Positions 58,412 through 64,000 are shown, counted from the stretch's first letter. The stretch: 64,000 bases of DNA from Sulfurimonas sp. HSL1-2 (GCF_039645565.1 NZ_CP147914.1:620001-684000); one strand, 5' to 3'. Numbers and translations: made by a program. Notes: generated by a model not told the origin, from the letters alone.

Positions 58412-61400
58412 ATGGCGCTCAAAGTCGTAATCTCCCACAAAACCCATTATCAGTATGACCGTTACGTGTCGCTCTCGCCGCACACCATCCGATTACGTCC
58501 CGCACCGCACAGCCGCACCCCGATCGAGGCCTACTCCCTCAAGATCAAACCGGACAACCACTTCCTCAACTGGCAGCAGGACCCGTTCGGCAACTACCTT
58601 GCCCGCGTCGTTTTCCCGGAAAAAACGAAAGAGATGAGCATCGACGTCGAGATCATTGCCGACCTGATCACCATCAACCCTTTCGACTTCTTCGTCGACG
58701 AATATGCGAAGAATTTCCCGTTCAAGTACAAAGCGGGGCTGAAAAAAGAGCTACTGCCTTATCTCGAGATCACGGACAAGGGCAAGAAACTCAAAGCGTT
58801 CATGGATTCGCTCGACCTGAAAACGGAACGCTCCATCATCGACTTCCTGGTCTACCTCAATACCGAGATCCACAAGTACCTCGACTATACGATCCGTCTT
58901 GATCCCGGCGTACAGACCTGCGAAGTGACCCTGGGCAACAAGCTGGGGAGCTGCCGCGACTACGCCTGGCTCTTCGTGCAGGTGCTGCGCCACCTGGGTC
59001 TCGCGGCGCGCTTTGTTTCGGGCTACCTCGTCCAGCTCACCGCCGACGTCAAATCCCTTGACGGTCCGAGCGGTCCCGAAGCGGACTTTACGGACCTGCA
59101 CGCCTGGACGGAGGTTTTCGTCCCGGGTGCGGGATGGATCGGCCTCGATGCGACCAGCGGCCTTTTTGCCGGGGAGGGGCATATCCCCCTGGCGTGTACG
59201 CCCCATTACGACAGCGCCCACGCCATCGACGGTGCGACGGACAAGTGCGAAACGGAGTTCGATTACTCCAACACCGTCACGCGGATCTTCGAATCGCCGC
59301 GGGTGACCAAACCGTACCGCGACGAGCAGTGGGAAGCAATCTACAACCTCGGGTTCGAGGTCGACAGGGAGCTCGAAGCCAATGACGTGCGCCTCTCGAT
59401 GGGGGGCGAGCCGACGTTTGTCTCCATCGACGACATGGAGTCCGAGCAGTGGAACACGGAGGCCGACGGCGAGCATAAGCGCGAACGCGCGGACGTCCTC
59501 GCCCACCGGCTGCTGGGCTCGTTCGGCAAGGGCGGGATGCTGCACTACGCCCAGGGGAAATGGTACCCGGGCGAACCGCTGCCGCGCTGGCAGAAATCGG
59601 TCATCTGGCGCAAAGACGGCAAACCGATCTGGCGCAACCCGAACCTTTTTGCGGACATGAACGCGACCTACAGCTACACGACAGAGGATGCAAAGCGCTT
59701 CCTGGAGCTGCTCTCCCTGACCCTCGGCGTCAGCGACAAAAACATCATTGAAGCGTATGAAGATCCTGTCTATTACGTCATCAAGGAGTCCGAACTTCCC
59801 ATCGACGTCGACCCGACGAAGTTCGACCTGGATGACCCGCTCGAACGCCGCACCCTGGCGCAGCTGCTGCAGCAGGGGCTGGCCAACCCGGTCGGCTTCG
59901 TGCTGCCGCTGGGCTACGGCCAGACCCGTTGGATCACCTCGGCCTGGGAATTCCGCCGCGGCAACCTTTATCTGAGCGCCGGGAACTCGCCGCTGGGCCT
60001 GCGGATGCCGCTGGATTCGCTGATGGAAAAACCGCATGTGGAGCTGGCGCAGAACTTCGAGCCCGACCTTTTTGCACAGGCCCCGGCGCTGGGCGATTAC
60101 CTCGACGATGCCCGGGCACGCTGCGAAGCGGTGACGCCGGAGACGACGGAGGCGAACCGCTACAACGCCTTTGTCCGCACCGCGATCAGTACGGAAGTGC
60201 GCGACGGAAAGCTCTATATCTTCCTGCCGCCGCTCAACCATACCGAGGCCTTCCTGGACCTCATGGCCTCCATCGAAGCGGTCGCGGCGAAGCTCAATGT
60301 CAAAGTCGTTCTCGAAGGGTACGAACCGGCCCACGACAACCGCATCGAGCGCATCAAAGTCACCCCGGACCCGGGCGTCATCGAAGTCAATATCCACCCG
60401 GCGAAGAACTGGAGCGAACTGACCGAAACGATGCTGGGGCTTTACGAGGATGCACGCCAGTCGCGGCTGGGGACAGAGAAGTTCATGGTCGACGGCAAGC
60501 ACACGGGAACGGGCGGGGGGAACCACGTCACGATCGGGGCGATGACGCCGCATGACAGCCCGCTGCTGCGCCGCCCGGAACTGCTGCGCAGCCTCATCAC
60601 CTTCTGGCAGCACCACCCGTCGCTCTCCTACCTCTTCTCCGGCGCCTTCATCGGGCCGACGTCCCAGGCGCCGCGTGTCGACGAGGGGCGGGCGGAGAAC
60701 CTCTATGAGCTGGAGATCGCCTTTGCCCAGATCCCCGAAAACGGGGAGGTGCCGTACTGGCTTACCGACCGGCTCTTCCGCCATATGCTGACCGACATTA
60801 CCGGCAACACCCACCGCTCCGAGTTCTGTATCGACAAGCTCTACTCGCCCGATTCGAGCACCGGACGCCTGGGGATCCTGGAGCTGCGCGGCTTCGACAT
60901 GCCGCCGCATTCGCAGATGGCCCTGATGCAGATGCTGCTGGTGCGCACGCTGGTCTCGCTCTTCTGGCGCAAGCCCTACCGCCACAAGCTGGTCCGCTGG
61001 GGAACGCAGCTGCATGACAAGTTCCTGCTGGAACACTACGTCAAAGAGGATATCGCCGATATCGTCCGTTTCCTGAACGCCGAGGGTTACCCCTTCGAGC
61101 TGGACTGGTTCGACCCCTTCTTCGAGTTCCGCTTCCCGCTCTACGGCATGGCGACGGTGGAGAACGTCCACCTCGAACTCCGCGCGGCCATCGAGCCGTG
61201 GCACGTCCTGGGCGAGGAGAGCGGTTCGCAAGGGACGTCGCGCTACGTCGATTCGTCGCTTGAACGCGTCCAGGTGAAGGTGAACAACTTCGTCCCCGAA
61301 CGCTACGTGCTCACCTGTAACGGGGTTGCGGTGCCGCTCAGCCCGACGGGCATCGAGGGCGAGTTCGTCGCCGGGGTCAAGTACAAGGCGTGGCAGCCGT

Positions 61401-61783
61401 GGTCGGCCCTGCATCCGACGATCGGGGTCGATACCCCGCTCACCTTCGACGTCGTCGACCGCTGGAACCAGCGCTCCACCGGCGGGATGACCTACTACGT
61501 CTCCCACCCCGGCGGCCGCAGCTACGACACCTTCCCGGTCAACAGCTACGAGGCGGAGTCGCGCCGTATCAACCGTTTCTGGGGCTTCAACCATACGCAG
61601 GGAAGCGTCGAAGAGGTACCGACCCATGTCGTCGAACAGGCACTCCCTTCCAACGACGGGGAGACGACGCGCAAGGTGGCCGAGAAGCATGCCGGCGACA
61701 AGATCTTTGTCTTCCAGGAGCTGCCGCGCAGTGCTGAGTACCCGCATACGCTTGACCTCAGACGGAAGTGGACCAGGGTGTAA
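58412..61783 (+). CDS. Transglutaminase-DUF2126 (putative amidoligase) fusion protein
   Basis: 1123 aa, cytoplasmic. An N-terminal beta domain (VVISHKTHYQYDRYVSLSPHTIRLRP) leads into a transglutaminase-like fold with a complete triad: C181 in GSCRDYAW, H230 in DLHAWTEV and D246 in GLDATSG. From about residue 328 (LSMGGEPTFVSIDD) to the end is DUF2126, which Pfam lists as a putative amidoligase of the glutamine-synthetase-like type. The transglutaminase half probably hydrolyses or transfers a peptide-type bond and the second half forms one. The TAA is directly followed by the ATG of the ATP-grasp gene. Confidence 0.92.
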   Translation: MALKVVISHKTHYQYDRYVSLSPHTIRLRPAPHSRTPIEAYSLKIKPDNHFLNWQQDPFGNYLARVVFPEKTKEMSIDVEIIADLITINPFDFFVDEYAKNFPFKYKAGLKKELLPYLEITDKGKKLKAFMDSLDLKTERSIIDFLVYLNTEIHKYLDYTIRLDPGVQTCEVTLGNKLGSCRDYAWLFVQVLRHLGLAARFVSGYLVQLTADVKSLDGPSGPEADFTDLHAWTEVFVPGAGWIGLDATSGLFAGEGHIPLACTPHYDSAHAIDGATDKCETEFDYSNTVTRIFESPRVTKPYRDEQWEAIYNLGFEVDRELEANDVRLSMGGEPTFVSIDDMESEQWNTEADGEHKRERADVLAHRLLGSFGKGGMLHYAQGKWYPGEPLPRWQKSVIWRKDGKPIWRNPNLFADMNATYSYTTEDAKRFLELLSLTLGVSDKNIIEAYEDPVYYVIKESELPIDVDPTKFDLDDPLERRTLAQLLQQGLANPVGFVLPLGYGQTRWITSAWEFRRGNLYLSAGNSPLGLRMPLDSLMEKPHVELAQNFEPDLFAQAPALGDYLDDARARCEAVTPETTEANRYNAFVRTAISTEVRDGKLYIFLPPLNHTEAFLDLMASIEAVAAKLNVKVVLEGYEPAHDNRIERIKVTPDPGVIEVNIHPAKNWSELTETMLGLYEDARQSRLGTEKFMVDGKHTGTGGGNHVTIGAMTPHDSPLLRRPELLRSLITFWQHHPSLSYLFSGAFIGPTSQAPRVDEGRAENLYELEIAFAQIPENGEVPYWLTDRLFRHMLTDITGNTHRSEFCIDKLYSPDSSTGRLGILELRGFDMPPHSQMALMQMLLVRTLVSLFWRKPYRHKLVRWGTQLHDKFLLEHYVKEDIADIVRFLNAEGYPFELDWFDPFFEFRFPLYGMATVENVHLELRAAIEPWHVLGEESGSQGTSRYVDSSLERVQVKVNNFVPERYVLTCNGVAVPLSPTGIEGEFVAGVKYKAWQPWSALHPTIGVDTPLTFDVVDRWNQRSTGGMTYYVSHPGGRSYDTFPVNSYEAESRRINRFWGFNHTQGSVEEVPTHVVEQALPSNDGETTRKVAEKHAGDKIFVFQELPRSAEYPHTLDLRRKWTRV

Positions 61784-64000
61784 ATGGGCATTTTCGACCG
61801 ATATTTTTCCGAAAGCTCCTTCGACGAGATGGTCGATGCGCAGCGGCAGTGCCGTCCGCACTGGCAGACGATCTGCGACCAGATCGAGGCGGCCGGTATT
61901 GATGGGCTGAAAGCCAAACAGGCGGAAATAGACTGGAGCCTGGAAGAGAACGGCGTCACCTATAACGTTTACGACACGCCCGACGGTGTCAGCAAGCGGC
62001 GCTGGACCCTTGACCCCATCCCCTTTGTCGTTACGCAGACGGAGTGGCAGGAGGTCGTGCGGGGGCTGCGCCAGCGTGCGAAACTCTTCGACCTGGTGCT
62101 GCGGGACCTCTACGGCGATCAGCACCTGCTGCGGCAGGGGATCCTCCCCGCCGAAGTCGTCTATGCGCACAAAGGGTATGCGCCGGAGATGTTCGGCTTC
62201 GGGACGAAAAAGGATTTCGAACTCTTCTTCTACGCGACCGATATGGCCCGCGGGCCCGACGGAAAGTTCTGGGTCGTCAATGACCGCATCCAGGCCCCAT
62301 CGGGGCTCGGCTATGCCGTTGAAAACCGCCTGAGCATGAATATCATCGCCAAGTCGCTCTACCCGGGGGTGCATACCCGCCGGCTTGCGGGCTTCATCGA
62401 CGAGATGAAGGCGATGATCGACCGCCTCAGCGGCGGTGACCGCTCCAAGGCGGCCCTGCTGACGCCCGGGCCGCACAACGAAACCTACTTCGAACACGCC
62501 TACCTCAGCTCTTTGCTGGAGATCAGCCTCGTGCAGGGGGAGGATATGCTGGCCAAAGACGGGGCGCTGTGGCTCAAAAACCTGAGCGGCCTGACACGGA
62601 TCAACACCCTGCTGCGCCGTGTGGACGACCGCTACTGTGACCCGCTGGAACTGAAAAACGACTCGCACCTGGGGGTCGCGGGGCTCGTCGACGCGGCGCG
62701 CCGGGAGAACCTGTCGATGATCAACCCGGTCGGCAGCGGTATCTTGGAGAACCTCGGCTTCAACCCCTTTATGAAAAACATCGCGCAGTTCTTCCTCGAC
62801 GAAGAGCTGATCCTGCCGCAGATCGCCACCTGGTGGTGCGGGCAGCCCGGCGAACTCGAATACGTCCTCAAGCACCTGGACAAACTGATCGTCAAGCACA
62901 TCGACCGGACCGAGACGGCCCAGGTCTACGTCGGCCGAAAGATGGACGCTCCGGCGCTCGACGCCCTGCGAAAACGCCTGCAGGAGTTTCCGCACCTCTA
63001 CGTGGCGCAGGAGGAGATCGGTTTCTCCACCGTGCCGTACTTTACCGGGGAGTCCGTCGAACCGCGCAACGCCGTCATCCGCTCCTACTCGTTCAAGCGG
63101 GGCAGCAAATACTGGGTGATGAACGGCGGGCTCGTGCGCGTCGCTTCGCAAAAGGACGCCTTCCTGATCTCGTCGCAGAAAGGGGGGACCAGCAAGGACC
63201 TCTGGATCGTCGGCGAGGATGAGGAGCGCGCGCCGAGCAACCCCTTCAAGCAGCTGCCGTGCATCGACGCCTCCATCGACCAGATCCCGACAAGACGCGC
63301 GGAGAACCTCTTCTGGCTCGGCCGTTACCTCTCAAGGGCGATCGTGACGACGCGCCTGATCCGCTATGCCGTCAAGCGCCTCATCAACGTCTACCGGGAC
63401 GAGTCGTATGCCTCGGCGGAGTCGCAGCACCAGCTGCTGCGCGCGATCACGCATATGACGATGACCTACCCGGGCTTCCTGAACAAGAAAACTTCCGAAA
63501 AGCTGCTGGAGAACCCGATGAAAGAGATCATCTCCGTGCTCAAAGAGTACAGCCGGGTCGGATCGCTCTCCTTTACGCTGTCGATGCTTTCAGGGGCGAA
63601 TATCAGCATCAAAAATCTGCTGGGCATCGAGGCGTGGAAGCTCTTTGACAAACTCCAGTGGGAGTGGCAGATCTTCTGCAGCGCCAATACCCGCATGAAC
63701 CGCACCATCGTCAACGAGATGGACAAGCTGCATATCAACCTGCTGGCCTACAAGGAGCTCGTCGAGGAGAGCATGTTCCGAGAGCAGGGGCTGGTGCTTT
63801 ATGATATCGGCTACCGTATCGAAAGCGTCCAGCTGCTCATCTCCAAAGCGCGCTCCCTGCTCTGTCTGCGCCAGGAGAAGGCCGCGGAGTATGAACTGCT
63901 CGAAGCGCTGCTCAACACCTGTGAGAGTTTCAACGCCTACCGCGCCCACTACCGCAGCGCCCTGCAGCTCGAGAACGTCATCGAGTTCCTGCTGCTCAAC
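61784..64000 (+). CDS. Circularly permuted ATP-grasp/alpha-E fusion (partial, 3' end outside)
   Basis: 739 codons are in the window and no stop is reached. Residues 1 to about 500 are a COG2308-type circularly permuted ATP-grasp: RGLRQRAKLFDLVLRDLYGDQ, GFGTKKDFELFFYATDMARGPDG, VVNDRIQAPSGLGYAVENRL, ALLTPGPHNETYFEHAYL, VGSGILEN and ATWWCGQPGE. From about 505 (RRAENLFWLGRYLSRA) the alpha-E (COG2307) helical domain begins. The two are often separate genes; here they are fused. Predicted to make an amide bond in an unidentified peptide or metabolite, with the preceding protein. Confidence 0.93.
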   Translation, partial: MGIFDRYFSESSFDEMVDAQRQCRPHWQTICDQIEAAGIDGLKAKQAEIDWSLEENGVTYNVYDTPDGVSKRRWTLDPIPFVVTQTEWQEVVRGLRQRAKLFDLVLRDLYGDQHLLRQGILPAEVVYAHKGYAPEMFGFGTKKDFELFFYATDMARGPDGKFWVVNDRIQAPSGLGYAVENRLSMNIIAKSLYPGVHTRRLAGFIDEMKAMIDRLSGGDRSKAALLTPGPHNETYFEHAYLSSLLEISLVQGEDMLAKDGALWLKNLSGLTRINTLLRRVDDRYCDPLELKNDSHLGVAGLVDAARRENLSMINPVGSGILENLGFNPFMKNIAQFFLDEELILPQIATWWCGQPGELEYVLKHLDKLIVKHIDRTETAQVYVGRKMDAPALDALRKRLQEFPHLYVAQEEIGFSTVPYFTGESVEPRNAVIRSYSFKRGSKYWVMNGGLVRVASQKDAFLISSQKGGTSKDLWIVGEDEERAPSNPFKQLPCIDASIDQIPTRRAENLFWLGRYLSRAIVTTRLIRYAVKRLINVYRDESYASAESQHQLLRAITHMTMTYPGFLNKKTSEKLLENPMKEIISVLKEYSRVGSLSFTLSMLSGANISIKNLLGIEAWKLFDKLQWEWQIFCSANTRMNRTIVNEMDKLHINLLAYKELVEESMFREQGLVLYDIGYRIESVQLLISKARSLLCLRQEKAAEYELLEALLNTCESFNAYRAHYRSALQLENVIEFLLLN

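Follow-up and report, generated by a model that had tools for sequence, protein, structure and literature searches.

Operons combining an ATP-grasp protein, an Alpha-E protein, a transglutaminase (TGase) and a fused transglutaminase-DUF2126 protein (TG-DUF2126) were reportedly predicted by Iyer et al. in 2009 to be a peptide-synthesis system. Two adjacent genes with the same domains are located at the end of a 64,000-nucleotide stretch of the Sulfurimonas sp. HSL1-2 genome (NZ_CP147914.1:620001-684000), referred to below as the window. A fused TG-DUF2126 gene beside a fused ATP-grasp/Alpha-E gene is also known in Azospirillum, Burkholderia and Enterobacter; unlike the described class, the Sulfurimonas locus contains a second operon with two M14 genes, M14b and M14a, and the genome has no Anbu. 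In the Anbu operon of Pseudomonas putida (PP_2685-2688) and Yersinia bercovieri, a separate ATP-grasp, an Alpha-E and a TGase are likewise accompanied by a hydrolase gene; however, the hydrolase there is the Ntn-hydrolase Anbu, whereas here it is an M14 pair. The Y. bercovieri ATP-grasp frees phosphate from ATP; for Anbu, neither peptidase activity in vitro nor a stable complex with the other operon products was observed (PMC6376114). The P. putida genes are nitrogen-limitation genes (PMC7801951, PMC8050072), as are Burkholderia cenocepacia I35_5080-83 (BCAM1233-1236), which are strongly NtrC/sigma54-dependent (PMC5491218). The latter also comprise DUF404/407, DUF403, a TGase and a large TGase protein, but their ATP-grasp and Alpha-E are separate genes and no M14 gene is named among them (PMC5491218). 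The RimK/RimB and RloABC systems similarly join an ATP-grasp ligase to a dedicated hydrolase, and RloB holds an inactive TGase domain (PMC12239564); they differ in the type of ATP-grasp and in the retropepsin hydrolase, and no Alpha-E or DUF2126 is named in them.

The preliminary description, made from the window sequence, presented a two-gene system. In the complete 2.52 Mb genome, the two genes are followed by a third, TGase 2, and these plus-strand genes (module 1) face a convergent set of minus-strand genes (module 2) that includes a separate ATP-grasp, a separate Alpha-E, M14b and M14a. This convergent pair is also present in relatives; the conserved module 1 has three genes, and module 2 accompanies it in 17 of the 21 DUF2126-bearing Campylobacterota genomes sampled, sometimes unlinked. 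The further ligase envisaged past position 64,000 was found in the form of the separate ATP-grasp, and it is this protein, not the fused one of the window, that is the catalytically intact ATP-grasp of the locus. An Anbu-type homologue is absent from the genome, where hslV beside hslU is the sole proteasome-fold match, and no small substrate or tag gene was seen in the locus; in the place of Anbu, an M14 hydrolase was found as the partner.

M14b retains both zinc-binding His residues, the zinc-binding Glu and the catalytic Glu in 80 of 80 sequences; the His and Glu motifs, unlike the catalytic Glu, were partly set by the search pattern, and the residues are also kept in unselected relatives. 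Both zinc-binding His residues and the catalytic Glu are missing from M14a in 78/78 sequences across Campylobacterota, Aquificota and Clostridia. M14a carries conserved residues of its own, for example, GETTQRIA and Y-N-W, and is therefore a maintained protein rather than a decaying one. M14b is related to the AstE/AspA (M14) deacylases and to DoeB, but is paired with a dead paralogue. It matches the DoeB structures 6TWL/6TWM, and small-molecule deacylases (DoeB) are its closest functionally named sequence relatives, although it scores far under the DoeB cut-off (38.8 versus 402.7 bits). No description of an M14 association with this class was found in the literature searched, which left out Iyer et al. 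2009. The two-gene architecture itself has been described and annotated before; the part for which no description was found is the M14 active/dead pair in the place of Anbu. It is quite possible, though short of probable, that ATP-grasp, Alpha-E, (TGase), M14b and M14a constitute a conjugation pathway that is undescribed and widespread among Campylobacterota, Aquificota and the Clostridia of the gut. An M14 hetero-complex of one active and one dead member would then stand in for Anbu; the hydrolase, and in genomes with module 1 also the ligase, would each operate as an active enzyme paired with a pseudo-enzyme. A link to cyanophycin through M14 (CphZ) was considered but not used, as the sole paper found applies this name to an isoaspartyl dipeptidase. 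Four unannotated human-stool records titled "Bacteriophage sp." (MT835514.1, MT835471.1, MT839705.1 and MT838278.1) each contain, in two places, relatives of M14a with 32-34% identity; these records are probably gut Clostridia contigs misfiled as phage.

Wherever the stretch is complete, in Campylobacterota, Aquificota and Clostridia alike, the genes are arranged as ATP-grasp, Alpha-E, (TGase), M14b, M14a, whether DUF2126 is present or not. Among 298 Campylobacterota genomes, DUF2126 was detected in 21, M14a (E < 1e-100) in 23 and both in 17 (Fisher p 3e-19, uncorrected for phylogeny, so that the independence of these related genomes is overstated). Alpha-E was found in 27 of the 298, exactly those with DUF2126 and/or M14a. 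In Sulfuricurvum-type genomes, module 2 occurs by itself at its locus; in 5/5 tested, an open reading frame (ORF) of TG-DUF2126 size (1123-1151 amino acids, aa) is located elsewhere, followed by a TGase about 5.8 kb further downstream. Of 295 genomes sampled at order level around a lachnospiraceal genome, 29 have M14a (E < 1e-69). Several variants can be noted. In the Sulfurospirillum and Thiovulum types (L030, L081, L082, L083, L086-L089), module 2 has a TGase of its own, placed after Alpha-E and before M14b; most other Campylobacterota copies lack it, and in many of these module 1, including TGase 2, is adjacent. Two clostridial loci (L101 and L110) contain M14b-M14a, with no ATP-grasp or Alpha-E detected in the fetched stretch. 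At locus L027 (genome G009), ATP-grasp and Alpha-E genes lie near module 1 with a PAS/GGDEF/EAL-type gene in between, and the M14 pair is absent.

The solved structure 3N6X and 83 separate ATP-grasps were compared with 37 fused Campylobacterota proteins. In ATP-grasp enzymes, E-x-N supplies Mg2+ ligands; the transfer of this role to the permuted family is our own mapping. None of the 37 fused proteins retains the Glu or the Asn of the L-E-D-N motif, where the window protein reads N-D-R, and in all 37 the following Arg is replaced by Gln and the GGYG loop is lost, whereas E-D-N, Arg and GGYG are kept in 83/83 separate ATP-grasps and in those of three Proteobacteria. Similar losses, in some cases with additional ones, were found in the fused ATP-grasps of Enterobacter, Sinorhizobium, Sphingomonas, Azospirillum and Burkholderia, with the exception of the Sphingomonas protein, which still holds the Arg. 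Because these motifs are lost in the fused ATP-grasp and kept in the separate one, the former is very likely a catalytically dead pseudo-ligase. The Pfam text on this family notes that inactive forms are frequently fused to Alpha-E; the residue comparison matches it and is therefore a confirmation, not a discovery. The preliminary description had argued that two ligase folds imply at least two bonds, and had itself regarded a loss of ATP-binding or catalytic residues as decisive against it. Such a loss is what the fused ATP-grasp half exhibits, so that two ligase folds do not imply two bonds for the window genes.

Other parts of that description stand. The TGase domain is joined N-terminally to DUF2126, as Pfam profile matches indicate, and its Cys-His-Asp triad is intact in the window protein and invariant in 35/35 related TG-DUF2126 ORFs (Cys181/His230/Asp246). 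The circularly permuted ATP-grasp/Alpha-E fusion is likewise supported by Pfam and follows at zero spacing, the TAA of TG-DUF2126 being directly succeeded by the ATG at 61784; the Alpha-E of this fusion has S517-R518 as its ER motif. These domain assignments are full-length family matches, far above chance, and membership in the predicted amide-bond-forming class is upheld. The candidate catalytic residues of DUF2126 (E333, E658/N660, N704/H705 and E824/R826) are kept in distant Proteobacteria too; a search of the PDB revealed no sequence relatives of TG-DUF2126 outside the TGase part.

Gene content, gene order, conservation and the presence or absence of catalytic residues give an anatomy that is secure at the level of sequence comparison. 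The best overall explanation, which we accept about as readily as we doubt it, is a bipartite cytosolic amide ligation and hydrolysis system, with the two window genes forming two-thirds of module 1. The separate ATP-grasp would activate a carboxylate as an acyl phosphate and join it to an amine, and DUF2126, where present, might perform a second, glutamine-synthetase-type ligation. Amide hydrolysis or transfer would be carried out by M14b (deacylase-type) and the Cys domains of the TGases, while the dead fused ATP-grasp and M14a may be structural or substrate-holding partners for the active enzymes. Tentatively, such a system could serve amino-nitrogen handling in nitrogen limitation by conjugating a small amino compound reversibly, for which gamma-glutamylation routes offer an analogy. 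Two findings suggest this role: NtrC regulates homologous operons, and some clostridial copies lie downstream of an amino-acid-type ATP-binding cassette (ABC) transporter, with a family-3 solute-binding protein and permeases encoded upstream on the same strand in 5/25 clostridial loci. No other conserved flanking genes were found in these 25 loci, most further "shared" ORFs being antisense frames.

According to the tagging hypothesis for the class, which Iyer et al. (2009) reportedly put forward and which is reviewed in PMC6376114 and PMC5666114 together with the gene context of the class, the ligases put a short peptide or amino acid on proteins, and hydrolases (Anbu elsewhere, M14 here) take it off. 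This is rather unlikely for the present locus, which has no small tag gene and whose M14b has small-molecule deacylases as its nearest functionally named relatives; moreover, an amino-acid transporter precedes some operons, and a confirmed tag is not reported in the literature found. Nitrogen regulation and the clostridial transporters weakly favour small-molecule conjugation over protein tagging. The zero gene spacing, the double fusions and the conserved DUF2126 residues would also be consistent with the stable two-protein complex of the preliminary description, in which DUF2126 and the fused ATP-grasp are both active, two bonds are formed and the TGase hydrolyses one of them. Such a complex is very improbable given the loss of E-x-N, Arg and GGYG in the fused ATP-grasps tested (the Sphingomonas Arg excepted) and the intact separate ATP-grasp encoded next door, and the behaviour of Anbu with its operon partners weakens the idea of stable association. 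Another reading is a fused ATP-grasp that is active through other ligands, such as the Asp of RRxDD or NDR, and catalyses a different reaction, nucleotidyl or phosphoryl transfer. K371, the ATP-grasp Lys, is still present in the window protein, as are RRVDD and several residues of the fold; however, the Lys is gone from the Sinorhizobium, Sphingomonas and Burkholderia homologues and RRxDD is partly gone from the first two, as expected of a non-catalytic domain, which makes this reading improbable.

A number of observations weigh against the proposed amide ligation and hydrolysis system. M14a is missing from 4 of the 21 DUF2126-bearing Campylobacterota genomes. DUF2126 was detected in only 1 of the 15 module-2 genomes searched (Clostridia, Aquificota and some Campylobacterota), and since Clostridia and others hold module 2 without it, module 1 is not obligatory. 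The motif loss in the fused ATP-grasp is compatible with ATP binding or altered chemistry. Likeness of DUF2126 to glutamine synthetase was not found by hhalign with shallow profiles (Prob <1%), and AlphaFold2 models of the DUF2126 protein and the second window protein, built from an alignment of close relatives only, reached a predicted local distance difference test (pLDDT) score of 42 and 60, respectively. The evidence for nitrogen regulation comes from other phyla, and the best sigma54 promoter candidates in front of the two modules were not above shuffles or not common to relatives. Finally, no reaction or substrate was found assigned to any member of the class in the literature searched.

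The class is widespread, and in two genera nitrogen limitation induces it strongly. Given that known members of the metallo-deacylase family of M14b act on small N-acyl amino acids, the exchange of Anbu for M14 would narrow the likely bond from protein tags toward small conjugates. The active/dead pairing of ligase and hydrolase indicates which proteins should be assayed singly and which jointly, and the compact four-to-five-gene version, for example, that of cultured Sulfurospirillum, is suitable for reconstitution.

Table 1. Features of modules 1 and 2. Positions are window coordinates unless marked L002 (locus coordinates; window coordinate = L002 + 52000).
Feature	Position	Strand	Remarks
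TG-DUF2126 protein	58412..61783	+	1123 aa, ATG 58412; Pfam Bact_transglu_N, Transglut_core, full-length DUF2126
Bact_transglu_N (res. 7-82)	58430..58657	+	Pfam, E 2.8e-26
Transglut_core (res. 144-247)	58841..59152	+	Pfam, E 1.5e-16
Triad codons	Cys181 58952-58954, His230 59099-59101, Asp246 59147-59149	+	
DUF2126 putative amidoligase domain (res. 277-1117)	59240..61762	+	1282 bits, profile 1-826/826
Fused circularly permuted (CP) ATP-grasp + Alpha-E, 5' 739 codons	61784..64000	+	Complete gene to window-equivalent 64276, 830 aa
CP-ATP-grasp (res. 80-454)	62021..63145	+	Pfam CP_ATPgrasp_1/2; nearest solved structure 3N6X, E 5e-72
Degenerate E-x-N-x-R motif	62279..62293	+	N166-D-R168-I-Q170 replaces E-D-N-L-R
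Degenerate phosphate-loop region	62912..62923	+	T377-E-T-A at GGYG region
Alpha-E domain (res. 502 on; 502-825 in complete 830-aa protein)	63287..64000, past window end	+	
TGase 2	L002 12280-13272	+	Starts 3 nt past ATP-grasp/Alpha-E stop
M14a	L002 13269-14201	-	AstE/AspA-type M14
M14b	L002 14188-15144	-	Matches AstE_AspA_cat
Alpha-E (separate)	L002 15147-15803	-	
Separate CP-ATP-grasp	L002 15805-17169	-	LEDN + GGYG kept
Third Alpha-E	L002 17433-18299	-	

The second window gene continues past position 64,000, which is the end of the window only. Both window genes are crossed by an antisense frame that is open for 1466 codons (58751-63151, minus strand); it is probably a by-product of codon usage, with no sign of being a gene. 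The third Alpha-E is a diverged duplicate of the downstream Alpha-E, extended N-terminally, and among the stretches read was seen only in the genus of the window (L002, L023, L024 and L025). A defence-system reading of the locus found no PADLOC match.

Enterobacterial plasmids can carry the system. The Enterobacter roggenkampii plasmid p1_120063 (L154) encodes ATP-grasp, Alpha-E, TG-DUF2126, a fused ATP-grasp/Alpha-E and a TGase in one run. This is a 91 kb IncFII plasmid, and an IS26 transposase gene is located inside the fetched stretch.

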